Assembly (NCBI RefSeq): GCF_003633725.1
Contig: NZ_RBIJ01000004.1
Coordinates: 124,001-188,000 of the forward strand
DNA from: Brockia lithotrophica
GTDB lineage: Bacteria; Bacillota; Bacilli; Thermicanales; DSM-22653
Reading direction: 5' to 3'
DNA length: 64,000 nucleotides
Each line of letters opens with the position of its first letter. The stretch's first letter is position 1. Below the pieces are notes generated by a model. It searched no databases, had not been told where the DNA came from, and saw only the letters and a program-made list of their open reading frames with translations. The position numbers and the translations under genes were made by a program. This document shows, one piece after another, positions 21,754 through 49,920 of the stretch.

Positions 21754-21789
21754 ATTTATAAGAAACAGAGACATAAAGGAGGAATTCGA

Positions 21790-22851
21790 TTGCAAACTAT
21801 CACCCTTAGCCTTCGTCTCCATCGCCCGACGAAAGCAAAGATCAAACGTTATCAGGAACTCGTCGAACGCACGACAGCGTTTGCCAACAACCTCGTCGCC
21901 GCCGGAAGGCCGAAGGGTCTCACCAGTCGGACGGCGCGGGTGTACCTCACCGGCGACCTCCCCTCAGTCGTAATCAACCAGGCATTGCGGGACGTGGCGA
22001 CGCATCGGGACGTTCGGACGTTCCGGGTCCTCTGGCCATCGTTCAACAACCAAAATTTGCGCCTAAAAAAGGTCGGGGACTTCTGGACGGCCTCGTTTCC
22101 GACGCAAGCCGGTCGAGTTCGGGTACCGCTCGCGGTTACTTCTAGGCAGGCCGCCATCCTCGAACGCCTCGGCCGAGACGTGAAGCAAGGGGCGGCAAAA
22201 TTGTACAAAAAGCGCGGACGGTGGTACATTGCCCTTTCGGTCACGCTACCCGTCGAAGAGAAGAAAATCCTTTCTGCAGACAAAGTCGCTGGAATCGACA
22301 TGGGCCTTCGCTATCTGGCCGTTGTGTACGCGGGCGGGGAAACGCTCTTTTTCCCCGGCGATCAAGCGGCCTACGTCCGCCGTCGGTATCACGCTCTTCG
22401 CCGGCGGATGGGAAAAGCGAAAGCACTAAAGGCAATCCGCCAAATGAAGGACAAAGAAGCCCGGTGGATGAAAGACCAGGACCACAAGATCAGCCGGGCC
22501 ATTGTCGATTGGTGCCTCGCCCGTGGCGTGGGCACCATCCGAATGGAGAAGTTGGAAGACATTCGCCGGAGGAAAACCCGGAAGCGCGACTTAGGAAGGT
22601 CTCTTCATTCGTGGTCGTTCTACCGGCTTCAGCAGTTTATCGCCTACAAGGCGCGTCTTTCCGGGATTCGCGTCGAGTGGGTTAACCCTAAGGATACTAG
22701 CCGGACGTGCCCGCGGTGCGGGCACTGCGCTTCGGAGAACCGAAGCGGAATTCAGTTCCGGTGCCGAAATTGCGGCTTTGAAGCCCACGCGGATGTTGTC
22801 GGTGCCTGGAACATCAGTTTTGCGATTAGCGGCCTGGCCGAGGCGGAATAA
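21790..22851 (+). mobile_element. tnpB: TnpB (IS200/IS605-type RNA-guided nuclease/transposase-associated protein)
   Basis: 353-residue TnpB; the TTG at 21790 follows AAAGGAGGAATTCGA. The RuvC-like catalytic residues are all visible: Asp in KVAGIDMGLRYLAV, Glu in IRMEKLEDIRRR, and the last Asp in EAHADVVGAWNISF. Between the last two lies a four-Cys zinc finger (CPRCG ... CRNCGF). The N-terminus (TITLSLRLHRPTKAKIKRYQ) differs from that of the neighbouring remnant, so the two are from different subgroups. TnpB proteins of this family are RNA-guided DNA nucleases that use an RNA from the element's right end. No tnpA is present, so movement would need a TnpA in trans. GC content and codon use are slightly lower than in the neighbours. 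Confidence 0.93.
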
Positions 22852-37043: not shown

Positions 37044-37712
37044 GTGTCGGCTTCTGCTCTCTCGCTCTTGGCCACGCTTGTAGCCTTGGCATTTGCTTTT
37101 GACGTGACGCGCCGGGCCTGGGCGAAACGACGCCCGAGCGACGCCCTCTTCGCCGTTTCTCTGTACATGTTTTCCCTCGCCGCCTTCGGGGAGTTCGTTG
37201 GCGGATCGTTCGGCTGGAGCGTCGGCCTCTACAAGCTCTACTACTTTACTGCCGTCGCCCTCGTCGCCTACATGGCCGCGGGTACTCTCTACGCCCGCGA
37301 CTCCGGGTGGGCGGCGCACGCCTTCCTTGCCTTCACCCTCCTCGCGAGCGTTGCCTTTTTGATCGCCCTCTTGCGCGCTCCGGTCGATCCCGCCCTCGTC
37401 GGTACGAAAGGCGCCGTAGGCGGCAGCTACATGCCGCGGGAGGTGCGAATGTTTAGTCCTGTTCTCTCCGGAATAGGTGCGCTGGTGCTCCTCGTCTCCG
37501 CCCTCGCGAACTTTTTGCGCACGCGCCGCCGGGGGTTTCTCGCGATCTTTTCGGCGGCTCTCGTTCTCAGCGCAGCGGGCGCCCTCGCCAAATACGTGGA
37601 CTTGCCCTTGGTGCTCCCCGCTTCTCAGCTCGTGGGTATCGCCCTCTACTATTGGGGCGTTGTAAGTCTTTCCGTCCCCGGGAGGGATCGCCCAGAAAAG
37701 GAGCGCGCGTGA
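37044..37712 (+). CDS. Unrecognised seven-helix-like membrane protein
   Basis: I do not recognise this family. The GTG at 37044 (or ATG 37023) gives about 222 residues; AAGGGGGAGAAAG supports the GTG. About six or seven hydrophobic segments are visible (ALSLLATLVALAFAF; LFAVSLYMFSLAAFGEFV; YYFTAVALVAYMAAGTLYA; HAFLAFTLLASVAFLIALL; VLSGIGALVLLVSALANFL; LAIFSAALVLSAAGALA; LVGIALYYWGVVSLSV), with a soluble loop containing KGAVGGSYMPREVRMFSP. The C-terminus is short and charged. It starts just past the tRNA-Gln promoter on the other strand and is high in GC like the chromosome, unlike the cas genes that follow. Confidence 0.75.
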   Translation: MSASALSLLATLVALAFAFDVTRRAWAKRRPSDALFAVSLYMFSLAAFGEFVGGSFGWSVGLYKLYYFTAVALVAYMAAGTLYARDSGWAAHAFLAFTLLASVAFLIALLRAPVDPALVGTKGAVGGSYMPREVRMFSPVLSGIGALVLLVSALANFLRTRRRGFLAIFSAALVLSAAGALAKYVDLPLVLPASQLVGIALYYWGVVSLSVPGRDRPEKERA

Positions 37713-37786
37713 CGAGAGGGTTCATCGGGTTTCCGGGAAAAATTTGCTCCCGACTCCGGGCATGTCTTTAGTTGACAGGGAAGATG

Positions 37787-37870
37787 TGGTACAAGAGGCG
37801 TAGGGGGACGGGGAAGTCGATTCCCCACCTCCCTCCGGGGCTCTTCTCGGGCGCAGAGCCCTCTCTTTTT
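37787..37870 (+). promoter_or_regulatory. cas3 leader: extended -10 promoter followed by hairpins and terminator-like stem
   Basis: TGGTACAAG (37787-37795) is an extended -10; a TTGACA lies at 37772-37777 but too close to serve as its -35. Then a hairpin GGGGAA-GTCGA-TTCCCC (about 37810-37826) and a 7-bp stem GGGCTCT/AGAGCCC (37838-37861) followed by TCTCTTTTT. The second stem may end transcription of the upstream gene or attenuate cas3. An AT-rich segment (37876-37891) just beyond it could hold a further start site. Confidence 0.45.
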
Positions 37871-37911
37871 CGACTTTATTGAATATAAATCGAGGGAGGT
37901 ACCCTTTTTCT

Positions 37912-40605
37912 ATGTCGTTAACCGCGAACGATGATGTATATATGAAATGTTTTTTCTGGGGGAAGCTCAAGCGCGATCCCAACGATCCTCGTGATGTCCG
38001 CTGTTTGCCTCTAGCCGCACACAGCCTTGACGTAGCCTGTGTGCTGAGAAATCTGGTAGAGCTACCCGGGTTTCGCCGCGCACTGGAAAGGGCGGCCGGT
38101 AGGCGGCTCGACGCCGTCGACTTTGATCGGTTGGCGGTTTTGGCGATGCTTCACGACATGGGGAAAGCAAATCTCGATTTTCAAAGGCAAATTTATCCAA
38201 ACTTTAAAAATAAAGTCGGACACATTCGGGCTATGGCCGCGATCCTCGATCCAGAACTTGGACAAGGCTCACTGTTTGATCAATGGCTTGAAACTTTGCC
38301 GCCTGAATTGGAATATTGGTTTTCTGATGAAGATACGGCATTCGGGTACTTTTCTGCGGTATTGTCCCATCACGGTCGTCCGGTGCAGTTCAAAGGGCGG
38401 GACGAAGACCGTCGTTTCTCCCTCCCCGGTTGGCAGAAAAGCGTTGAGGGAAATCCTTTCGATGCACTGCGGGAGATTGTCGATTGGTCCCGCAAGACGT
38501 TTCCCAACGCGTTCCAAGATGGCCCTGAACTTCCGGCCTCCCCGGAGTTTGTCCACCGGTTTGCCGGCCTCCTCATGTTGGCCGATTGGTTGGGTTCTCA
38601 TGAACACTGGTTTCCGATTCAATCGGTAACTTGGGAAGAAAGGCGAGAACATAATCAGAGAAAAATTCCGGAAATGCTCAAGGCCGTGGGTCTCGACGTT
38701 CGTCCCCTTCGTCCGCATCTCACCGGGATTCGGAGTTTTGAGGAGCGCTTTGGGTTTTCTCCTAACTCCATGCAAGAACGCATCGAGTATCTTGATCCGG
38801 ATGACGACAGGACAAGACTTCTTATCCTCGAATCCGAAACGGGATCTGGTAAGACCGAAGCGGCGTTGAACTGGTTTTTCAAACTATTTGCCGCAGGCAA
38901 GGTGGACGGGCTGTACTTCGCCCTTCCAACCCGTGTCGCCGCGCGAGAACTTTATACCCGTGTACACCGGACGATTCAGCGGTGGTTTCCGGATCCCAAG
39001 GTTCGACCCGTAACCGTCCTTGCCGTACCAGGATATGCTCAGGTCGACGGCCTTCCGGTTGAAAAAATTCTTCCCGCCGAAGATGAGGGGAACCGTTGGC
39101 AGGAAGATGAACAGATCCGCCTGTACGACCGCCTATGGGCGGCCGAACGGCCAAAGCGTTTTTTGGCGGCAACGGTTGCGGTAGGAACCGTAGACCAGGC
39201 ACTTCTCTCGGTGGTCAAAGCGGCTCATGCGCATCTTCGTTCGGCGAGCTTGGACCGGAGCCTTTTGGTCGTCGACGAGGTTCACGCTTCGGATGCATAC
39301 ATGACCCATTTGCTCGAGGCGCTCGTACGCCATCACTACCGGATCGGCGGCTATGCGCTCCTCATGTCAGCGACTTTGGGTTCTGCGGCACGACAACGTT
39401 ACCTTGCGGCGATCGGAGGAAAAAAGGAAAACATCGAGTGGTCAGCTGCGGTGAACACGCCTTTCCCTCGGATCACGTTTGCCGACGGTACGGGAACGGA
39501 CGTACCGCCGAGGGGAGGAAAACGAGTTCGCCTTACCCTCCTTCCGTTGGCCGAAAAACTCGAGGGTATCGCCCACGAGGTCATCCAGCACTTGCGTTCC
39601 GGTGCGCGGGTTCTCGTTGTTTTGAACACCGTAAATCGAGCCGTTTCCTTACAAAAGGCGATTGAAACGCGGATCGAAACCCAACACGACTTGGACGAGC
39701 GTTGGCTCTTTCGTTGTCCCGGCTATAAGGGCCAAGAGGTAGTGACGCTTCATCACGGGCGTTTTGCCCCCGAGGATCGCGTGGTCCTCGATGCTTGCGT
39801 TTCGAAGCGGCTTGGCCGAGGAAGTGGGAAAGGGCCGATCCTCCTCATCGGTACGCAGACTCTGGAACAAAGCCTTGACCTCGACGCTGACGTGCTCATC
39901 ACCGACCTTGCTCCGGCAGACGTTCTCCTGCAACGTATTGGCCGACTCCATCGCCACAAGCGGGACGATCGGCCGCCTGCATACCGAGAACCGGCACCTT
40001 GCTTTGTTCTTGTTCCCGAGGATGAGCTTCTAAAGTCCTTAAACGAAAAAGGCGAAGTTCGAGATACGTACAAACGCATGGGATACGGGAGCGTCTACGA
40101 GGATCTACGAATGCTCGAGCTCACCCGACGGGCAATTGCCGAGCGTCCGGACATCGTGATCCCCCGAGACAATCGCCTCCTTGTGGAATCCGCAACCCAT
40201 CCGGAGCGTTTGGAGTGCCTCACAGCGGAAAATGTCGCGTGGCGGCTGCACATGGAAAACCGAGAAGGGGCCAAGATTGCCAAAGAAGTTACCGCCAGTT
40301 ACCAGGTGGTAAGGTACGACGAACCCTTCGGAGAAGTGGAGTTCGACGTCGACGGTGTAAAGGTCACGACCCGTCTAGGCGCCGATACATACCAAGTGCC
40401 GCTCGATAAACCGGTGGTTTCTCCTTTCGGTCAAATCCTTCGCGAGGTCCTCATCCCGTCCCATTGGTCTCCCAAAGACCGTCCAGAGATAGCGACCGTC
40501 GAGGATGTCCGGGAGGGAGATGAGGTTGTCCTCCGGTACGGGAGCCATCGGTACCGGTACAGCCGTTTCGGCTTGGAGTTAATATCCGACGAGAGAGGAG
40601 GTTGA
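37912..40605 (+). CDS. cas3: CRISPR-associated helicase-nuclease Cas3 (type I-E)
   Basis: Degrades DNA marked by Cascade. The ATG at 37912 follows GAGGGAGGTACC. 897 residues. N-terminal HD nuclease: H37 (AAHSLD), H81-D82 (MLHDMGKANLDFQ), a later His pair near VLSHHGRPVQF. Helicase: Walker A ESETGSGKTEAAL, DEVH box VVDEVHASDAYM, MSATLGSAARQRYL (motif III), and motif V/VI LIGTQTLEQSLDLDADVLI ... LQRIGRLHRH. Domain fusion HD-helicase-CTD is the I-E norm. Lower GC than the chromosome genes around it. Confidence 0.97.
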   Translation: MSLTANDDVYMKCFFWGKLKRDPNDPRDVRCLPLAAHSLDVACVLRNLVELPGFRRALERAAGRRLDAVDFDRLAVLAMLHDMGKANLDFQRQIYPNFKNKVGHIRAMAAILDPELGQGSLFDQWLETLPPELEYWFSDEDTAFGYFSAVLSHHGRPVQFKGRDEDRRFSLPGWQKSVEGNPFDALREIVDWSRKTFPNAFQDGPELPASPEFVHRFAGLLMLADWLGSHEHWFPIQSVTWEERREHNQRKIPEMLKAVGLDVRPLRPHLTGIRSFEERFGFSPNSMQERIEYLDPDDDRTRLLILESETGSGKTEAALNWFFKLFAAGKVDGLYFALPTRVAARELYTRVHRTIQRWFPDPKVRPVTVLAVPGYAQVDGLPVEKILPAEDEGNRWQEDEQIRLYDRLWAAERPKRFLAATVAVGTVDQALLSVVKAAHAHLRSASLDRSLLVVDEVHASDAYMTHLLEALVRHHYRIGGYALLMSATLGSAARQRYLAAIGGKKENIEWSAAVNTPFPRITFADGTGTDVPPRGGKRVRLTLLPLAEKLEGIAHEVIQHLRSGARVLVVLNTVNRAVSLQKAIETRIETQHDLDERWLFRCPGYKGQEVVTLHHGRFAPEDRVVLDACVSKRLGRGSGKGPILLIGTQTLEQSLDLDADVLITDLAPADVLLQRIGRLHRHKRDDRPPAYREPAPCFVLVPEDELLKSLNEKGEVRDTYKRMGYGSVYEDLRMLELTRRAIAERPDIVIPRDNRLLVESATHPERLECLTAENVAWRLHMENREGAKIAKEVTASYQVVRYDEPFGEVEFDVDGVKVTTRLGADTYQVPLDKPVVSPFGQILREVLIPSHWSPKDRPEIATVEDVREGDEVVLRYGSHRYRYSRFGLELISDERGG

Positions 40606-40620
40606 CCCGAGCAAGATCAC

Positions 40621-40650
40621 TTGATTTTCCTCGCGTGTGTATGGTTCAAT
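40621..40650 (+). promoter_or_regulatory. Possible separate promoter for cse1 to cas2
   Basis: TTGATT (40621-40626), 18-base spacer, TTCAAT (40645-40650) in the 76-base AT-rich gap between cas3 and cse1. Confidence 0.3.
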
Positions 40651-40681
40651 AATACTACGGATTCTAAGCGAGGTGAAAACC

Positions 40682-42235
40682 TTGAGGTTATTTAATCTTC
40701 TTGAAGACCCGATATTTCGTGTCCAGGTGCAGCAGGGCATGGAGCGCTTGAGCCTTCCCGAGGTTTTGGAGTCTCTCGGCCGAGATGAAATCGAGCACTT
40801 TGTAGGTCTTCAAAAGCATCAGGAAGACGCGTTCCACGTCTTTCTCTCTTACCTTGGAGCGGCCGTTCTGGCCCGGAATAACGTGAACGATCCAGTTCGC
40901 TCAAAAGATTACTGGCGGGACAAGCTCCGCGGATTAGCAGGGCCTGCCGGCGATGATGCGTGGACCCTCGTCGTAGACGATCTGGACAAGCCCGCCTTTT
41001 TGCAGCCGCCAATCCCCGAGGGAGATCAAAGACGCCTTGAGGCAACTGCGTTTACGCCGGATGAATTGGATCTTTTGCCTACGTCCAAAAACCACGACCT
41101 CAAGAAAGCGCGGGCTTCCTCCGCCGAAGTCGACGTATGGGCGTACGCCCTCATCAGCTTGCAGACGATGAGCGGTTACTACGGCCGAGGGAACCGCGGG
41201 ATTTCCCGTATGAACAGCGGCTACGGGAACCGGCCAATCGCAGAGGTGGTGCGGAGTTTCCGGCCTGGGCGTAGGTGGCAGGATGCTGTGGAACGTTTGC
41301 TTTTGCATCGCCGAGAAGTGCTCGAAGGATCGTTCGGATATGACCCCCATGGGTTGGTCCTCGTGTGGACGGTTCCGTGGGACGGGAAAACAAGCCTTCT
41401 CCTACGTCAGCTCGATCCGTTCTACCTCGAGATCTGCCGGCGGATAAGGCTTCGTTCTGACGGGGTGTCCATCGTCCGGGCGGACAGCGTTCCGGCGGAC
41501 AACGACAGAATTGCCGCCAAGGAGTTCAAGGGGGTGGTCGGCGACGCCTGGTTGCCGGTGGTGACGGACGATTTGAAGGCCTATACCGTTCCGCCGGATG
41601 GGTTGAGCGTCGACACGCTACGCCGACTCATCTTTGAAGACGGCTTCAAGCTTGGGGCACTTCAGAAACCATTGGATCACTGGCAGGGAGATGTATACTT
41701 TTCCGTGTCCGTGCTCGTACGGGGAGAGGGGAAGACGAACGGCTTTTACCACCGGATCGTCCCCATTCCCGAACGCGTTCACCCCCGGCTTTGGAAGAGG
41801 CAGGAGCAGCGCACGACATATGCGCAGTTGAGCAAAAACGCCGTAGAACGGGCAGGGGAGGTACAACACCGCGTTCTAAAGCCGGCGATCTACGCCCTGC
41901 TCGGCGGTCTAGAACGCAATGGGCGGGAGAGCGTGACATTTAAGGCGTGGTGGGAGCGGGCGGCCGGGGAGTATACGGCGGCTTGGGAGAACGAGTTTTT
42001 CCCGTGGTTGTGGTCCATTCCGGAGGACGAGTCGCGCGACGAGGCGCTTCGGGAATGGACTCGCAAGCTGTACTCCATCGCCCTCGAAGTGCTGCGGGAG
42101 ACGGAACACCGACTTCCGCGCAAGGAAGGGACGAGGTACCAGACGGTTGCTGCGGCAGAGCGCATCTTTTTCGGCGCTTTCTACAATCGCTTTCCTGAAC
42201 TCTTTCCGGCGAAAAAAGAGGAGGTGCTCTCGTGA
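40682..42235 (+). CDS. casA: Cascade large subunit Cse1/CasA
   Basis: Large subunit (Cas8e) of the I-E effector; recognises the PAM and recruits Cas3. The TTG at 40682 follows GCGAGGTGAAAA. 517 residues, the usual size. It has the family start (FNLLEDPIFRVQ), the helical middle (LPTSKNHDLKKA; YALISLQTMSGYYGRGNRGISRMNSG), PWDGKTSLLLRQLDPFYLEICRRI, and a C-terminal four-helix bundle. The GRGNRGISRMNSG segment is the conserved glycine-rich loop region. Confidence 0.95.
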   Translation: MRLFNLLEDPIFRVQVQQGMERLSLPEVLESLGRDEIEHFVGLQKHQEDAFHVFLSYLGAAVLARNNVNDPVRSKDYWRDKLRGLAGPAGDDAWTLVVDDLDKPAFLQPPIPEGDQRRLEATAFTPDELDLLPTSKNHDLKKARASSAEVDVWAYALISLQTMSGYYGRGNRGISRMNSGYGNRPIAEVVRSFRPGRRWQDAVERLLLHRREVLEGSFGYDPHGLVLVWTVPWDGKTSLLLRQLDPFYLEICRRIRLRSDGVSIVRADSVPADNDRIAAKEFKGVVGDAWLPVVTDDLKAYTVPPDGLSVDTLRRLIFEDGFKLGALQKPLDHWQGDVYFSVSVLVRGEGKTNGFYHRIVPIPERVHPRLWKRQEQRTTYAQLSKNAVERAGEVQHRVLKPAIYALLGGLERNGRESVTFKAWWERAAGEYTAAWENEFFPWLWSIPEDESRDEALREWTRKLYSIALEVLRETEHRLPRKEGTRYQTVAAAERIFFGAFYNRFPELFPAKKEEVLS

Positions 42236-42747
42236 GTACCACGCTGAGGAATTACGTCGAGCGGCTAGAGCAGTACATCGGAGACGATGCATTCCCTACG
42301 GGAGAGCGTGCCGCCCTTCGGCGGATGACGCCGACGCAACCGCCGCCAACCGCTCTATATCGTCTGGCCATTCAGATCCTGCCCGAGGATTGGGACGTCG
42401 ATCTCGGGCGGCGAAAAGACTGGCAGACGTTGGTTGCGGGGATGGCGCTTATGTACCCGTACATTCACGATCCGGGGCGAAGTTTTGGCACTGCGCTAGG
42501 CGAAGCTCGCTTCTCGGATTTGCGGCTCGAACGTCTCCTCGCTTCTCGGGGTGACGGCCGAAGGTTGCTGTTTCTTCGCTCCGTTCGCTTTCTCGCTGCG
42601 AAGGGGAAGGCGTTCGACTGGACGCAAGCAGCCCGATTTCTATTTGCACGAGATAGCGAACAACTAGAAGAAGTTCACCGTCAGATTGCCAAAGATTATT
42701 ATCGAGCTGCAAGTGAATATCAAGCTAAAAGCGAAATAAATATTTAG
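42232..42747 (+). CDS. casB: Cascade small subunit Cse2/CasB
   Basis: Small subunit that stabilises the crRNA-target duplex, present twice per Cascade. GTG start overlapping casA by four bases. 171 residues, helical and basic: LRRMTPTQPPPTALYRLAIQI, FGTALGEARFSDLRLERLL and the C-terminal FLFARDSEQLEEVHRQIAKDYY are typical of the family. Confidence 0.92.
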   Translation: MSTTLRNYVERLEQYIGDDAFPTGERAALRRMTPTQPPPTALYRLAIQILPEDWDVDLGRRKDWQTLVAGMALMYPYIHDPGRSFGTALGEARFSDLRLERLLASRGDGRRLLFLRSVRFLAAKGKAFDWTQAARFLFARDSEQLEEVHRQIAKDYYRAASEYQAKSEINI

Positions 42748-42771
42748 TATAAATTAAAGGAGGAATGAATA

Positions 42772-43953
42772 ATGTTTCTTCAAGTTCACTACCTCACGAG
42801 CTATCACGCCAGCTTACTCAACCGGGATGATACGGGGTTGGCGAAGCGAATTCGGTTTGGCGGGGTAGAACGGCTTCGCGTTTCAAGTCAGGCTCAGAAA
42901 AAGCATTGGCGCGACTGGATGATGCAGGAAACCTCTTTGCCCTCGGCCATTCGGTCCCGCCACTTCTTTTCCCGCGTAGTCAAAGACGAACTCGTTCGAG
43001 AAGGTATGAACGATGCGCTTGCACACGAACTGACTCGCCACCTGGCTCAGGAAGTTTTGCGCGCATCTGGAGAAAAAGATGCTCTGGACAAAACCACATT
43101 GGCGATGAAGCAGCCTGTCTTGTTCGGACGGCCGGAGGCTGAGTACTTCAAAAAATTGATCCGTGAAGCAGCAGCCCAAGGAGATACGGAAAATGCTAAA
43201 AAATACTTGACTGACATTATTAAAGAGAGCAAAAGCAACATCCAATCCATGCTCCGCCAGGCTGGTTTAGGCAATCCGGCGGTCGGGTTTGAAGGTGCGC
43301 TCTTCGGACGTTTCGTCACATCGGATGTTCTGGCGCGCGTGGATGCTCCGGTTCATGTCGCCCACGCCTTTACTACCCACGAACTTCGGACCGAGATCGA
43401 CTTCTTTACGGTGGTGGACGACCTCGCCGCCGATGAGGAAACGGGTGCGGCCCACGCAGGGGACATGGAGCTTGGCGCTGGGATCTTTTATGGGTATGTT
43501 GCCGTAGACGTACCGCTCCTCGTGTCCAACTTGGGCGGTCGTGATCGGAAGGAATGGAAGGCGGATCCGGAAGGGCAGGCGATGGCCCGGGAACTCCTGG
43601 AACTTCTCATTCAGGCGATCGCCACGGTTTCGCCAGGAGCCAAACTTGGGGCGACTGCGCCGTATGCCCGAGCGGAGTTTGTGATGTTGGAAGCCGGAGA
43701 GGCTCTTCCTCGGAGTTTGGCAAATGCCTTTTTGGAGCCGGTGTCTTTGAACGGAGGCGGAAACGTGCTTGCGAAGTCCGTCGGGCGAGTTGCCGAGTAC
43801 CTTTCGCAGCTCGAAGGGATGTACGGCGATACGGGTGAAAAGCGGTACGTCGCTTCGCTTCACCCTTGGCCGCGGGAACGGGAGCAAAAAACCAATCTTC
43901 CCACCGCAATTCGGGGCACGCTCGACGCGATTTTCGGAGCCGTTGAAGGGTAG
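42772..43953 (+). CDS. cas7e: Cascade backbone subunit Cas7e/CasC
   Basis: RAMP-type backbone protein, six copies of which coat the crRNA. ATG behind AAAGGAGGAATGA. 393 residues. Family signature at the N-terminus (VHYLTSYHASLLNRDDTGLAKRI then GGVERLRVSSQAQKKHWRD), a central FVTSDVLARVDAPVHVAHAFTTH and the C-terminal SLNGGGNVLAKSVGRVAEYL. Confidence 0.96.
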   Translation: MFLQVHYLTSYHASLLNRDDTGLAKRIRFGGVERLRVSSQAQKKHWRDWMMQETSLPSAIRSRHFFSRVVKDELVREGMNDALAHELTRHLAQEVLRASGEKDALDKTTLAMKQPVLFGRPEAEYFKKLIREAAAQGDTENAKKYLTDIIKESKSNIQSMLRQAGLGNPAVGFEGALFGRFVTSDVLARVDAPVHVAHAFTTHELRTEIDFFTVVDDLAADEETGAAHAGDMELGAGIFYGYVAVDVPLLVSNLGGRDRKEWKADPEGQAMARELLELLIQAIATVSPGAKLGATAPYARAEFVMLEAGEALPRSLANAFLEPVSLNGGGNVLAKSVGRVAEYLSQLEGMYGDTGEKRYVASLHPWPREREQKTNLPTAIRGTLDAIFGAVEG

Positions 43954-43963
43954 GCGAGGGCGG

Positions 43964-44734
43964 ATGAAAGCCTTGGTACTTCGCCTTGACGCTCCCATGC
44001 TTTCCTTTGGTACGACTGCCATTGACCATCTAGGATTCACGGATTACTTTCCGGGGACGGCGCTTTTGACCGGATTGATTGGAAACGCGCTGGGCTGGGA
44101 GCACCGGGATTTCGATAAACTTCAACGCTTGCAAGAACGCCTCCGGTATGCAGCTCGTTGGGATATCCGGCCCGTGCGAATGGTGGACTATCAGACGGTA
44201 GATTTAGGCCAACCCAAAATGGCCGAAGCCGGCTGGACCACCCGCGGAAAGCCCGAGCATCGAACCGGAGGTTCTGCAAAAAAGGAAACCCATCAGAGAT
44301 ATCGCCACTACTGGACGGACGGCCTCATGACCGTTGTACTGACCCTACTTGATGAAGAGGAACCCGATCTCAATCAGATCGCACAGGCTCTTAGACGGCC
44401 GTCCCGCCCCCTTTTTCTTGGGCGCAAAAGTTGCCTTCCCTCTCGTCCCCTCCTGGATCCCCATACTCCGATTGTTGAGGGTGAGGACTTGCTTGAAATC
44501 CTTCGGCGAGTCCCACGTTGGGTTCGCTCCGTCGGGAAGGATTCTCGACGTCATACGGGTTCAGAAGATCTTCTGCCTGCCTGTTGGCCGGATGAGATCG
44601 GGACCCCCTCGGAAATACGCGGCGAATTGAAGCGCGTTTTCGATCTCAGGGACTGGAAGAACCAACTCCCCGCCGGGAGTCGTTGGCGAATGGAAGGTGT
44701 GATCGATGTGAAGGAATCCATCGAGGTGAACTGA
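43964..44734 (+). CDS. cas5e: Cascade subunit Cas5e/CasD
   Basis: Binds the 5' handle of the crRNA. ATG behind GGCGAGGGCGG; 256 residues. The start (MKALVLRLDAPMLSFGTTAI) and the substrate loop regions (TGLIGNALGWEHRDFDKLQRL; RRPSRPLFLGRKSCLPSRP) match Cas5e. Ten bases after cas7e, one base before cas6e. Confidence 0.95.
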   Translation: MKALVLRLDAPMLSFGTTAIDHLGFTDYFPGTALLTGLIGNALGWEHRDFDKLQRLQERLRYAARWDIRPVRMVDYQTVDLGQPKMAEAGWTTRGKPEHRTGGSAKKETHQRYRHYWTDGLMTVVLTLLDEEEPDLNQIAQALRRPSRPLFLGRKSCLPSRPLLDPHTPIVEGEDLLEILRRVPRWVRSVGKDSRRHTGSEDLLPACWPDEIGTPSEIRGELKRVFDLRDWKNQLPAGSRWRMEGVIDVKESIEVN

Positions 44735-44735
44735 G

Positions 44736-45521
44736 ATGGGCGTATATGACGTGCATCTAGTGGAGATCACGCTGGATTTTGGAGCCTTGATGCGGTTTTT
44801 AAGGGACAAGGGAATGATACCGCGATGGGACGATGAAGACCTAGGATACGGGATCCACACATGGCTCGTATCGGCATTTGGGTCCCTTTCGCCAAAACCG
44901 TGGCGCCTCTTTACGACGCGCGGGCGTCCCCCTAAGATCCTGGGGTATGCCCTGCATGACGCGAAGGATCTGCGGGAGCACCTCTTGGCCTATGCCGCCC
45001 CGGGGACAATGCGCGTGCTTCTCCAATCGGATCCGGAAACTAGCATCCTGAGCAAACCTATGCCCAGGTTTTTACCCGGGAAATCGCTTGCGTACGAAGT
45101 GCTCACGGTTCCCGTGGTCCGAAAGACGACGGTCGACGAAGACGGGGAAGAACGGGGGAAGACGGTCGAGAAAGACCTCTTCCTCCACCATGTCGAAAAA
45201 CACGGCGGAAGGGCCCAAGAGTCCAGGGCAGAGGTTTACGGGAAGTGGGTCAGGGACCTCCTCGAGAGGGAGTTTCCGGAGACGAAAAAGAGGGCTGTGG
45301 ACGTTCACGACGCTCGCTTGGAGGGGTTCCGCCTCGTTCGGCAGGTTCGGTATACTCACGGAGAAATGCGGAACCGTAGCCGAATCCTGCGCCCTCAGGC
45401 CCTGATTCGCGGTGAACTTACCGTACGCGATCCGGACACGTTTTCCCTGTTGCTCGAGAAGGGTGTCGGACGTCACAAGGCTTTTGGGTACGGAATGCTC
45501 TTGTTGAGGCCGGCGCGATGA
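44736..45521 (+). CDS. cas6e: crRNA endoribonuclease Cas6e/CasE
   Basis: Cuts pre-crRNA at the base of the repeat hairpin and stays on the 3' end. 261 residues. Tyr38 and His41 in the segment LGYGIHTWL fit the Tyr/His catalytic pair of Cas6e proteins; the C-terminal glycine loop GVGRHKAFGYGMLLLRP is typical of RAMP nucleases. The natural substrate is the repeat stem CCCCGC/GCGGGG in the array downstream. Confidence 0.95.
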   Translation: MGVYDVHLVEITLDFGALMRFLRDKGMIPRWDDEDLGYGIHTWLVSAFGSLSPKPWRLFTTRGRPPKILGYALHDAKDLREHLLAYAAPGTMRVLLQSDPETSILSKPMPRFLPGKSLAYEVLTVPVVRKTTVDEDGEERGKTVEKDLFLHHVEKHGGRAQESRAEVYGKWVRDLLEREFPETKKRAVDVHDARLEGFRLVRQVRYTHGEMRNRSRILRPQALIRGELTVRDPDTFSLLLEKGVGRHKAFGYGMLLLRPAR

Positions 45522-46414
45522 GCCAGGGGTCGTTTTTGTCGGGGCGCCTTGGTTTGGCTGGTGCGAGGATTCCCCATGCGGATCGACATGGATTGCTTTG
45601 GCTTTCGCGCGGCCAACTTTATGTTCAGGACGGGACGTTGATCTTTTCGACGGCAGGGAGCGAGGAATTCGATCCCGGGGTGTATCAGATTCCTTATCAG
45701 ATGGTGTCCATCATTCTTTTAGGTCCCGGCACCAGCATTACCCATGACGTGCTGAGAATTCTCGCGCGCCACGGAACCCTTCTTGCCGCCGTCGGGGAAG
45801 GAGGTGTGAAATTTTACACGGCCCCGCCTATGGGGCAAGGGCGCTCGGACGTAGCCCGCGCGCACGCTCGGCTTTGGGCAGATGAAAAAGAACGGAATCG
45901 AATAGCGAGGAAAATGTATTCGATTCGCTTTCAGGAGGACTTTCCGGAAAGAGATATTAGTACATTGAGAGGAATGGAGGGAGGCAGGTTACGAGAATCG
46001 TACCGGATAGTTGCTCAGAAGTACGGTATAGAATGGAAAGGGAGGAGGTACGACAGAGAAAATCCTGAAACTAATGACATACCCAATCAATCTATTAACC
46101 ATGCATCTACATTCGTAGAAGCTGCGGCAGATGTCGCCGTTGCCGCGGTTGGGGCTTTGCCGCCTCTAGGGTTCATCCACGAGGATTCCAGCAATGCCTT
46201 TACTTTGGACATTGCCGACTTATGGCGTGTAGAGGTGACCCTGCCCCTTGCGTTTTCTGTCGCCGCTCGCGCACTTAAAGACCCTGGTGTTATTTTAGAA
46301 AAAGAAATTCGTTACGAAGCAGCAAAAATTTTTAAGAAAAAGAACTTAATACCAAAAATGATCGACCAAATTAAGGGGTTACTTCATGTCGATGACAATT
46401 CTGGTGACTCGTAA
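45518..46414 (+). CDS. cas1: CRISPR integrase Cas1 (type I-E)
   Basis: Metal-dependent integrase that inserts spacers at the leader end. ATG overlapping cas6e by four bases. 298 residues; E. coli Cas1 has 305. The three metal ligands are present in the expected order: E154 (STLRGMEGGRLRE), H221 and D234 (GFIHEDSSNAFTLDIADLW), the His-Asp spacing being the same as in E. coli. The C-terminus is acidic. Confidence 0.96.
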   Translation: MSQGSFLSGRLGLAGARIPHADRHGLLWLSRGQLYVQDGTLIFSTAGSEEFDPGVYQIPYQMVSIILLGPGTSITHDVLRILARHGTLLAAVGEGGVKFYTAPPMGQGRSDVARAHARLWADEKERNRIARKMYSIRFQEDFPERDISTLRGMEGGRLRESYRIVAQKYGIEWKGRRYDRENPETNDIPNQSINHASTFVEAAADVAVAAVGALPPLGFIHEDSSNAFTLDIADLWRVEVTLPLAFSVAARALKDPGVILEKEIRYEAAKIFKKKNLIPKMIDQIKGLLHVDDNSGDS

Positions 46415-46688
46415 CGTTTCCGATCGTATGCGAGGATTTCTGGCTTCGTCTATGCTCGAACTTGCTCCGGGAGTATACGTCGGGGTTCGCTTTTCCCCGG
46501 CAGTTCGTGAACGCGTCTGGGAGACCGTCGAAGAGTGGTTTATCAGAGAGAGCGGGGCCAGTGTTGTCATGGTATGGCGTGACCCCACGCAACCGGGAGA
46601 AATGTCCGTAAAGTTTCTCGGGCTCCCACCCATTGACATTGTCCTGCAGGACGGGTTCCTCCTTGCAAGGCGTCTAAAGGAAATGTAA
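46386..46688 (+). CDS. cas2: CRISPR-associated protein Cas2 (type I-E)
   Basis: Ferredoxin-fold partner that bridges two Cas1 dimers. The frame overlaps the end of cas1 by 29 bases. 100 residues, the normal size of Cas2e, with the family start MTILVTRNVSDRMRGFLASS, the GVYVGVRFSPAVRERVW strand-helix unit and the C-terminal DGFLLARRLKEM. No DnaQ domain is fused to it. Confidence 0.95.
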   Translation: MSMTILVTRNVSDRMRGFLASSMLELAPGVYVGVRFSPAVRERVWETVEEWFIRESGASVVMVWRDPTQPGEMSVKFLGLPPIDIVLQDGFLLARRLKEM

Positions 46689-46826
46689 CCTGAAGTAAGT
46701 GAGGCGCGAGCTCCGGTCCGTGGTCCTGCGTAAAGCCGAAGACGTCGTGCCGTTGAGCGTCTTCTGGAAGAGGAGTTACCAAGAACCAAAAAAGTAATTG
46801 TACCACAGAAAGAGTATTTGTCAAGG
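46689..46826 (+). promoter_or_regulatory. CRISPR leader
   Basis: 138 bases between cas2 and the first repeat; the last 50 bases are AT-rich (AAGAACCAAAAAAGTAATTG, GAAAGAGTATTTGTC). The intact repeats face this side and the degenerate one lies at the other end, so transcription and spacer insertion start here. Confidence 0.75.
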
Positions 46827-48080
46827 GTTTCCCCCGCGCACGCGGGGATGGACCGTGCCCCGGCGCGAGCCTCTAGCCGAAGCGCTGGTTTCCCCCGCGC
46901 ACGCGGGGATGGACCTTGGCTGAGATGCGCCGCGCTGGTGTAAGCAAAGTTTCCCCCGCGCACGCGGGGATGGACCCAGCGGTGATGGCGCTAGGATATT
47001 CGGCACTACGTTTCCCCCGCGCACGCGGGGATGGACCTAGTCAAAAGACTTTGTAATAATTTGCCCAGGTGTTTCCCCCGCGCACGCGGGGATGGACCTG
47101 ATAGATCGCCAAAAAGACGGGCCATGGCCAGGTTTCCCCCGCGCACGCGGGGATGGACCGATCGCGGTCGCCGACTTCACACCCGACTACTCGTTTCCCC
47201 CGCGCACGCGGGGATGGACCTCACAAGCAAGATAGACGACGTAAAGAATGCAGGTTTCCCCCGCGCACGCGGGGATGGACCTTGATGTAGCATCTAAAGA
47301 AGACGGCGTTGATTGTTTCCCCCGCGCACGCGGGGATGGACCTTTTCTCACAACGTCGAATCTTAGTTGACTTGGGTTTCCCCCGCGCACGCGGGGATGG
47401 ACCCGTCGACCACGTGTCCGGGTCGACTGAGCTCGCGTTTCCCCCGCGCACGCGGGGATGGACCTGCTGAAAAAGGCCATCGGGGGAGAAGGCCGAAGTT
47501 TCCCCCGCGCACGCGGGGATGGACCTCGAGCTCCGCTCTCTCATCGAATCGGAAACGTGTTTCCCCCGCGCACGCGGGGATGGACCTGAACAGGCAGAAG
47601 TTATGGGGATGCCGCTTGTGTTTCCCCCGCGCACGCGGGGATGGACCCGCGCTGTCGTGCTGCAGTGATGAGCGCGGAGAGTTTCCCCCGCGCACGCGGG
47701 GATGGACCGCACCTGGCCGTCCAGGTACGGAGATGAGGCGAGTTTCCCCCGCGCACGCGGGGATGGACCTGATGAGTATCCGAGATACATGCCGCCTGTT
47801 CGGTTTCCCCCGCGCACGCGGGGATGGACCTGGTATAAGATCTTCCACCAGAAGACCTATAGTGTTTCCCCCGCGCACGCGGGGATGGACCTGATCCGCC
47901 CGCCGCGCCGGATAGTGGCACACGGTTTCCCCCGCGCACGCGGGGATGGACCTGACGTGTATCTCCCCGCCCCTCAGAACCCCCGGTTTCCCCCGCGCAC
48001 GCGGGGATGGACCGGCTTGACAAAGATGCTCCTTAAGGGCAACGTGGTTTCCCCCGCGCACGCGGGGGCGGGGGGATGGA
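46827..48080 (+). CRISPR. Type I-E CRISPR array, 21 repeats and 20 spacers
   Basis: 28-base repeat beginning GTTTCCCCCGCG and ending CGCGGGGATGGACC, with the palindrome CCCCGC-GCAC-GCGGGG. Repeats begin at 46827, 46888, 46949, 47010 and so on to 48047, exactly 61 bases apart, so every spacer is 33 bases. The first 20 repeats are identical as far as I can see. The last (48047 on) keeps the first 20 bases, then carries extra G/C residues inside the stem and ends GGATGGATG, i.e. a degenerate terminal repeat. The stem is the expected Cas6e substrate. Orientation follows the cas operon. Confidence 0.98.
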
Positions 48081-48155
48081 TGCCCGGATTTTATTTTTTA
48101 TACCATCTCCTCAGATAGACAGCCTTCGAATTTTACTCCAAGCGGAGGGAATTCG

Positions 48156-48944
48156 ATGTTCGATGCGCACTTGCACTTTGAGGCAATTGTATCCCGAGAG
48201 GACGGTACGATCGATTGGGAACGGGCAAAACGGCTTGTCGAGCGTTGGCGCGCAGGCGGCGTGCGGGGGGTATTGGCGGTGTCTGTGGATCGACCGTCGT
48301 CCGAAAGGACGCTTGAACTCAAGGAACGGTTTCCCGACTTTGTTTTTGCCGCTTTAGGCGAACACCCGGAGCGACCTTCCTCTTCGGAACGGGAATTCTG
48401 GGCGTTGGAGGAACTCATTCGGACAGAACGGGAACGGATTTCGGCGATTGGGGAGATTGGGCTCCCTTACTACGTCGGGGTCGAACGGAAGTCGGCGGTT
48501 TTGGAGCGCCTTCGTATTTTTGCTGCTTTGGGACGGGAGCTTGACCTCCCTCTCGTTCTGCATGCCGTCTACGACGGAGCGGCGGAAGCGCTCTCTACCC
48601 TGCGGGAAGCTGCGATAGAAAAGGCACACTTTCACTGGCTCAAGGCATCGGATGCCATCGTAGAGCGGATTTTGGATTCTGGATACCGGGTGTCGGTTAC
48701 GCCGGAAATCTGTTATCAGGAGCGGGCTCGGGTGTTGGCACGGAAGGTTCGGCGGCGTGGGGAGCCTATTCTATTTGAGACGGACGGACCGTGGATGTAC
48801 GAAGGCCCTTTTGGCGGACGGCCTGCAGATCCTCTATGGCTTTGGGACGTGCTTCGGTGCACTGCGGAGGTGGTCGGTGAAAAAGAAGAGGACCTTTTGG
48901 CGTCTGCGGATGCCGCATTTCTTTCGCTGTTCGGAAGTTCGTAG
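48156..48944 (+). CDS. TatD family metal-dependent nuclease/hydrolase
   Basis: 262-residue TatD-fold protein, ATG behind CGGAGGGAATTCG. Metal ligands are all visible: HxH in FDAHLHFEA, Glu in AIGEIGLPYY, His in LVLHAVYDGAA, His in AHFHWLKAS and Asp in LFETDGPWMYEGPF. The FHW and ETDGPW...EGPF pattern marks a sub-branch seen in Bacilli, distinct from housekeeping TatD/YabD. TatD proteins act as 3'-5' DNA/RNA exonucleases or DNases. It lies only 75 bases beyond the CRISPR array, in the same direction, and has lower GC than the chromosome core. Confidence 0.92.
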   Translation: MFDAHLHFEAIVSREDGTIDWERAKRLVERWRAGGVRGVLAVSVDRPSSERTLELKERFPDFVFAALGEHPERPSSSEREFWALEELIRTERERISAIGEIGLPYYVGVERKSAVLERLRIFAALGRELDLPLVLHAVYDGAAEALSTLREAAIEKAHFHWLKASDAIVERILDSGYRVSVTPEICYQERARVLARKVRRRGEPILFETDGPWMYEGPFGGRPADPLWLWDVLRCTAEVVGEKEEDLLASADAAFLSLFGSS

Positions 48945-49074
48945 GTAACCCGCTACTTAGATTAGAAACGGTCGAGGGGGTTACTTTCCGCATCGGATCG
49001 GGAAGTCTGTTGGTTTCCGGGTGCACCGGGGGAGAAATACACGGATTCACAAGGGCGACGTTACCGGTCGGACG

Positions 49075-49083
49075 TGGTATACT
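49075..49083 (+). promoter_or_regulatory. Extended -10 promoter before the exonuclease gene
   Basis: TGGTATACT (49075-49083), an extended -10 without a clear -35, about 60 bases before the coding frame. The gap 48945-49142 has no gene. Confidence 0.4.
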
Positions 49084-49142
49084 TCAGGGTGAAAGGGCCG
49101 GAGTCAGTTTAAAAGACTGAGAGCAAGTGTGTCGAGAAGTTT

Positions 49143-49853
49143 TTGGATTTAATAACAATGTTACATTACAAAGGAGTGATAAATATTATTTGCGACTATG
49201 AAAGCAAAATCTTATTTAGGTTGAGTTTGGATAATATGAATAAATTTATAAGAAAAATATACGAGAATGATATAACCAATGATGATTTATCGCTTCTTGT
49301 AGTAGATGTAGAAACAACGGGATTAAACTACAAAAAGGATCAAATAATAGAGTTTGCTGGTATTGTTTTGATAGCAAATAAAAAAGATAAACGCATAAAA
49401 GGTTACATAGACGCTTACGCAGGGGCGCAAGAACCAAGCATACCTATAAAAAAGAAGGTATCAAGAATAACAGGGATAAATAGAGAAGACGTTGTCGGTT
49501 TTAGCTTAAATTTAAGTAAGATTAACGAACTATTTAAAATTTCATACTTCGTTATAGCACATAATGCAATTTTCGATAAAAGATTTATAGAAAGATTGCC
49601 AAATTTTCGTTACACAAATAAAATTTGGTTAGACACTCTTCATATTAATTGGAAGAAACTTTTAAATATTAAAAATAATACATTAAATGAAATAAAACAA
49701 TTTTTCAATATAAAAGAAACCATAAACCATTCCGCTCTAGGCGATGCAATATCTTTGTCAATGATTCTACAAGAAAAAATCGATGGCGTATATGTTTTAA
49801 GTTATTTATTAACGGATGAACTAATTAGACGCATCGAAAAATATAAGTTTTAA
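49143..49853 (+). CDS. Stand-alone DEDDh (DnaQ-like) 3'-5' exonuclease, AT-rich
   Basis: Up to 236 residues. All five DEDDh exonuclease residues are present (numbering from TTG 49143): D55 and E57 in VVDVETTGLNYK, D145 in AHNAIFDKRF, H196 and D201 in NHSALGDAISL. The fold matches DnaQ/ExoT/epsilon-type exonucleases. The coding sequence is strikingly AT-rich, with Lys/Ile/Asn-rich protein, against a GC-rich chromosome, so it was probably acquired from another source. The start is uncertain: TTG 49143 lacks a clear ribosome-binding site, AAAGGAG at 49169 precedes only ATT/ATA codons, and ATG 49158 or 49236 are alternatives. All keep the active site. Confidence 0.88.
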   Translation: MDLITMLHYKGVINIICDYESKILFRLSLDNMNKFIRKIYENDITNDDLSLLVVDVETTGLNYKKDQIIEFAGIVLIANKKDKRIKGYIDAYAGAQEPSIPIKKKVSRITGINREDVVGFSLNLSKINELFKISYFVIAHNAIFDKRFIERLPNFRYTNKIWLDTLHINWKKLLNIKNNTLNEIKQFFNIKETINHSALGDAISLSMILQEKIDGVYVLSYLLTDELIRRIEKYKF

Positions 49854-49920
49854 CAATTCCAAGGCAGAGGCCGCACACCAATCGGGGTTTCCATGCTTTG
49901 CGCGCGTTGTAGGCCCCCTC

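Follow-up and report, generated by a model that had tools for sequence, protein, structure and literature searches.

A stand-alone DEDDh exonuclease gene linked to one clade of type I-E CRISPR loci with unfused Cas2

The type I-E locus and its neighboring nuclease genes

We analyzed a 64,000-nucleotide stretch of the Brockia lithotrophica genome (hereafter "the window"), which contains a complete type I-E locus encoding Cas3, Cas8e, Cas11, Cas7, Cas5, Cas6, Cas1 and Cas2, as identified by NCBIfam and Pfam matches. Cas6e scores below its model's cut-off, yet holds the expected place in the operon. Cas2 is a separate protein of 100 amino acids, unfused as originally predicted, unlike the Cas2 proteins that carry a fused DEDDh domain. 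The locus and its surroundings comprise the following features:

37680-49915, no strand assigned: variable region with the I-E locus, array, TatD gene and exonuclease gene (flank alignment with genome G001)
37879-46688, + strand: type I-E cas operon, cas3-cas8e-cas11-cas7-cas5-cas6-cas1-cas2 (NCBIfam and Pfam matches)
46827 to ~48075, + strand: CRISPR array of 21 repeats at 61-nt spacing, the final repeat degenerate
48156-48944, + (cas) strand: TatD-family nuclease, judged a passenger (PF01026, 6e-43; no CRISPR link among its relatives)
49143-49853, + (cas) strand: stand-alone DEDDh (PRK09182-like) exonuclease (PF00929, NF006615, catalytic residues, fold model)
49170-49190, + strand: Shine-Dalgarno-like AAAGGAG and candidate ATT starts of the exonuclease (sequence and alignment with the G004 homologue)

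The flanks of this region are conserved in G001, a genome of the same genus, both on the tRNA-Gln side and on the side with tRNA-Glu, thi4-like and SbcC genes. The alignment ends at 37679 and restarts at 49915, and in place of the window's variable region G001 has a shorter interval of ~2.6 kb with sufS/sufU-like genes, as read by eye. Because the alignment restarts only ~60 nt beyond the exonuclease stop codon, the exonuclease gene lies inside the variable region. Across the cas genes and TatD (37879-48944), GC3 is clearly below that of the sister-genome counterparts (0.50 versus 0.72 for cas1), as if this block had originated in, or drifted within, a lower-GC background. The genome has a second array on a different contig (L294:5468-6163; C1:368464-369161), with 12 copies of the window array's repeat; the 11.5 kb retrieved around it contain neither a DEDDh nor a TatD gene.

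The original prediction placed a TatD gene and an AT-rich exonuclease gene with an intact DEDDh site past the array, both on the cas strand, and our analysis confirms this arrangement. The exonuclease gene (27% GC) has a GC content of 0.275 and a GC3 of 0.25, against roughly 0.65 in the flanking chromosome. Its product matches PF00929 at 1e-14 and contains all five catalytic residues (D55, E57, D145, H196 and D201) in the DxE, D and HxxxxD motifs of DEDDh (DnaQ-like) exonucleases; these residues are invariant in all five array- or cas-linked proteins described below and in an 18-sequence alignment. An AlphaFold model (mean pLDDT 85; first 30 residues disordered) shows an RNase H-like exonuclease fold, with the exonuclease domains of DnaQ, PolC and ExoX as top Foldseek matches and the DnaQ domain of S. 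thermophilus DGCC 7710 as the best of them. By sequence, the best named family is NF006615 (PRK09182; 5.9e-29); since the score of 100.8 bits lies under the curated cut-off of 207, we label the protein "PRK09182-like" rather than a member. The PADLOC profile for stand-alone DEDDh proteins, PDLC01247, matches it at 1e-25.

The annotated TTG codon at 49143 is probably not the true start of this gene. A Shine-Dalgarno-like AAAGGAG at 49170-49176 lies upstream of in-frame ATT codons at 49185 and 49188, near the aligned TTG start of the homologue in G004, a genome from a different genus within the family; that homologue has its own AAAGGAGG. A start at either ATT codon would remove about half of the disordered N-terminus.

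The TatD gene begins ~80 nt beyond the array end, close to the 75 bases first given. Its metal ligands had been described as complete: those covered by PDB alignments are conserved, and the N-terminal HxH is read straight from the sequence. The proposal that TatD is a trimming accessory did not survive comparison with other genomes. At a threshold of E 1e-30, 57 of 151 genomes encode a TatD relative, and none of 40 fetched neighborhoods contains I-E cas genes; two of the 40 contain short four-copy repeats without I-E cas genes. The closest relative observed over the full length, 79% identical, is in G004, on a different contig from the I-E locus and with no array on that contig. The TatD profile found no match at the I-E loci surveyed outside the window, so that the recurrent linkage expected of a CRISPR accessory is lacking, and our literature search found no paper tying TatD to type I-E loci. 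Given the 40 neighborhoods without I-E cas genes and the absence of TatD from the other surveyed loci, we regard TatD as most likely a passenger that shares the variable region with the exonuclease. Its GC3 is lowered as in the cas genes (0.59, compared to 0.83 in G004 and 0.89 in a G001 fragment), which suggests a common history with the region. TatD may thus have traveled with the region, and this, with the adjacency of TatD and the exonuclease on the cas strand, would fit a joint trimming module. We consider such a module very improbable and largely refuted: in G004 the exonuclease is at the array but TatD is on an array-less contig, and no other surveyed I-E locus has a TatD gene.

Linkage of the exonuclease to one Cas1e clade

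G004 encodes an orthologous I-E operon with the same repeat (Cas1 84% and Cas7 89% identical to the window's), and an exonuclease 40% identical to the window's likewise lies beyond the far end of its array. The G004 array (L076:14088-14271 and L074:841-963) contains duplicated spacers and a 410-bp interruption, and a small open reading frame of ~60 codons (L074:1141-1327) lies between array and exonuclease. On the 3' side of the G004 exonuclease is a tnpB-like stretch (L074:2335-3129), probably a mobile element, with an 84% identical copy at 21788-22582 of the window, far from the window exonuclease and within the window's low-GC dip.

We surveyed 398 genomes of the class and 398 of the phylum, seeding the search with Cas1 rather than the exonuclease so that loci were not chosen by the latter. 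Eight loci, the window's among them, form one Cas1 clade with 100/100 support; they include L166, which was found through the exonuclease itself and is left out of the statistics. A class-wide search around one of these genomes, G459, yielded no additional clade members. Enrichment near I-E loci had been set beforehand as a test of the original prediction, and for loci of this Cas1e clade it is present: a stand-alone PRK09182-like exonuclease is encoded at five of the eight loci, the recurrent location expected of a CRISPR-ancillary DEDDh gene. In the window and G004 the gene lies past the array; in G459 and L166 it precedes cas3 by ~120-130 nt and shares its strand; and in G757 it occupies the cas3-array interval, adjoining cas3 on the opposite strand. 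Of the other three, G541 encodes a family member away from the locus, on a separate contig. A search at E 1e-20 detects none in G620 or G529; in both, the array comes within ~120 nt of a contig end, and its far side is unseen.

Stand-alone members of the family occur in ~38 of the 398 phylum genomes. Away from the five linked loci, we found no array or I-E cas genes in any of 37 neighborhoods (36 around clear family members and one around a weaker match), in a search that used the window's I-E proteins as queries, could detect other CRISPR types solely through their arrays, and included several contigs that stop close to the exonuclease gene. Nor did these unlinked relatives share a common defense context: their neighbors are mixed and mostly metabolic. 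Under a uniform-placement model, linkage in at least three of the four clade genomes besides the window has p ~1e-8, and Fisher tests on the phylum sample, excluding the window genome, yield p = 0.007 (co-occurrence) and p = 0.005 (linkage); we treat all of these values as indicative, because the genomes are related rather than independent and the loci few. Overall, there is good support for a link of the exonuclease with this I-E clade. The PADLOC DEDDh profile proved useless for a genome-wide linkage search, matching 397 of 398 genomes, mostly through PolC.

Origin of the linked exonucleases

The original prediction viewed the exonuclease as a module detached from a Cas2 fusion. Our phylogeny contradicts this: the DEDDh domains fused to Cas2 group in a single clade (99/88) close to PolC, apart from the stand-alone family, and none of the five linked exonucleases falls among the fused domains. 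The tree thus rules out descent from a Cas2 fusion and points to independent recruitment from a chromosomal family. In our survey, fused Cas2-DEDDh proteins occur only in the other branch of Cas1e.

The five linked exonucleases occupy four places in the family tree, with the window and G004 proteins as the sole pair. A single origin for all five is rejected (AU test, p = 0.0016), and monophyly of the G459, L166 and G757 proteins, a subset named after the first tree had been seen, is disfavored (p = 0.027). Taken together, the rejection of a single origin and the absence of these proteins from the Cas2-fused clade support repeated recruitment out of a chromosomal exonuclease family, each time beside the same unfused Cas1-Cas2 lineage; with some long branches and many weak forks in the tree, the exact number of recruitments is uncertain.

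We also considered a phage origin and rejected it. Matches in phage records are weak, the best being ~36% identical (Rhizobium) and shorter ones reaching 42% (Clostridioides phages), and relatives on viral contigs are distant and branch on the PolC/fusion side of the tree. The expectation that the nearest relatives are not phage genes was thereby upheld. Relatives on plasmids, most of them rhizobial, share less than 60% identity, and their alignments all span less than 80% of the query.

Between the window and G004, the exonuclease (40% identical) diverges faster than Cas1 (84%), which fits either a replaceable partner or weak constraint. The same contrast would be expected of cargo, that is, a mobile or horizontally moving gene that lands next to CRISPR loci but plays no part in their function. 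Cargo would also account for the variable position, for the tnpB-like gene next to the G004 exonuclease, and for an exonuclease AT content that exceeds that of the adjacent cas3 at each of the five loci. Yet the same family recurs at one Cas1e clade while its members elsewhere sit in mixed, array-less neighborhoods, and the active site is retained. We therefore regard cargo as fairly unlikely.

Proposed role and comparison with known systems

We propose, at just short of even confidence, that the exonuclease is an accessory of this I-E clade that trims prespacers bound by Cas1-Cas2, with TatD as a passenger. We base an accessory role on an intact DEDDh gene that is linked to the Cas1e clade and was recruited more than once, and on Cas2 being unfused. 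From this we infer expression of the exonuclease, activity on DNA and a partnership with Cas1-Cas2. In such a pathway, Cas1-Cas2 would bind a DNA fragment too long for integration and protect its core, and the stand-alone DEDDh enzyme would trim the exposed 3' ends down to integration length, the same task as that of the Cas2-fused DEDDh domain in other I-E systems. Prespacer 3'-end trimming in trans is, in our reading of the combined evidence, the likeliest role of the window exonuclease, and one that we would put at about an even chance.

Several observations count against trimming with Cas1-Cas2. At three loci the exonuclease abuts cas3 rather than cas1-cas2, at one of them (G757) on the opposite strand; the G541 member on another contig and the lack of any in G620 and G529 at the threshold used, with their array ends unseen, count against a dedicated linkage. 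The dispensability of DnaQ and ExoT in E. coli in vivo (PMC9699676) is a further point against. The main rival explanation is that the exonuclease serves Cas3 and not Cas1-Cas2, degrading or reshaping the 3' ends that Cas3 leaves in its target and thereby improving interference or supplying fragments for primed adaptation. Because the cas3-adjacent position recurs (G459, L166 and G757), we keep this role under consideration. We nonetheless judge it unlikely: in the window and G004 the exonuclease lies at the far end of the array, distant from cas3, and we know of no I-E system that needs a dedicated exonuclease for interference.

A DEDDh enzyme might instead trim the 3' ends of crRNA rather than DNA, as some members act on RNA, and the structural matches of the window protein include RNase T and oligoribonuclease. 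This role is highly improbable, however, since the window repeat is predicted to form a stable hairpin, I-E crRNAs normally retain their Cas6e-bound 3' hairpin, and structurally the protein is closest to DNA-proofreading domains and to the DnaQ domain found in a Cas2 fusion strain.

Returning to prespacer trimming, we tentatively suggest, with somewhat less than even confidence, that an I-E lineage with unfused Cas2 has repeatedly captured PRK09182-like exonucleases as dedicated but replaceable trimming partners. If true, this repeated capture would be a solution parallel to Cas2-DEDDh fusion and to Cas4, and the recruitment of different exonucleases by one Cas1-Cas2 lineage would point to an interchangeable trimming partner. 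For I-E systems without Cas4, the identity of the enzymes that complete prespacer 3' ends in vivo is unsettled, and a candidate trimmer encoded at the locus makes this question directly testable: being unfused, the gene can be deleted, swapped between loci or fused. The novelty is modest, as the idea of a stand-alone DEDDh accessory already exists; our limited literature search found no description of the PRK09182-like subfamily, the Cas1e clade or the repeated recruitment.

Prespacer trimming on Cas1-Cas2 by a DEDDh domain is established for a Cas2 fusion, and stand-alone DEDDh genes are widespread ancillary components of CRISPR systems (PMC10284694). The window enzyme resembles Cas2-DEDDh (Cas2-DnaQ) fusions, such as the Megasphaera trimmer-integrase, in being a DEDDh protein at a Cas4-less I-E locus with the same proposed task, but it is a separate gene of another DEDDh subfamily at the locus edge. 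Like the ancillary genes that PADLOC detects with PDLC01247, it is a separate DEDDh gene in the vicinity of cas genes. The profile itself is generic, with PolC among its matches; our analysis adds the PRK09182-like subfamily and its recruitment, more than once, beside a single Cas1e clade. Other PRK09182-like exonucleases (NF006615) have no CRISPR arrays nearby, and the proteobacterial members are longer, at ~300-325 amino acids. The E. coli enzymes DnaQ and ExoT trim prespacers in vitro and are dispensable in vivo, where the set of trimming enzymes is described as yet to be determined (PMC9699676). These are likewise DEDDh enzymes that act in trans on Cas1-Cas2-bound DNA in vitro; unlike the window exonuclease, they are housekeeping proteins encoded away from the CRISPR locus.
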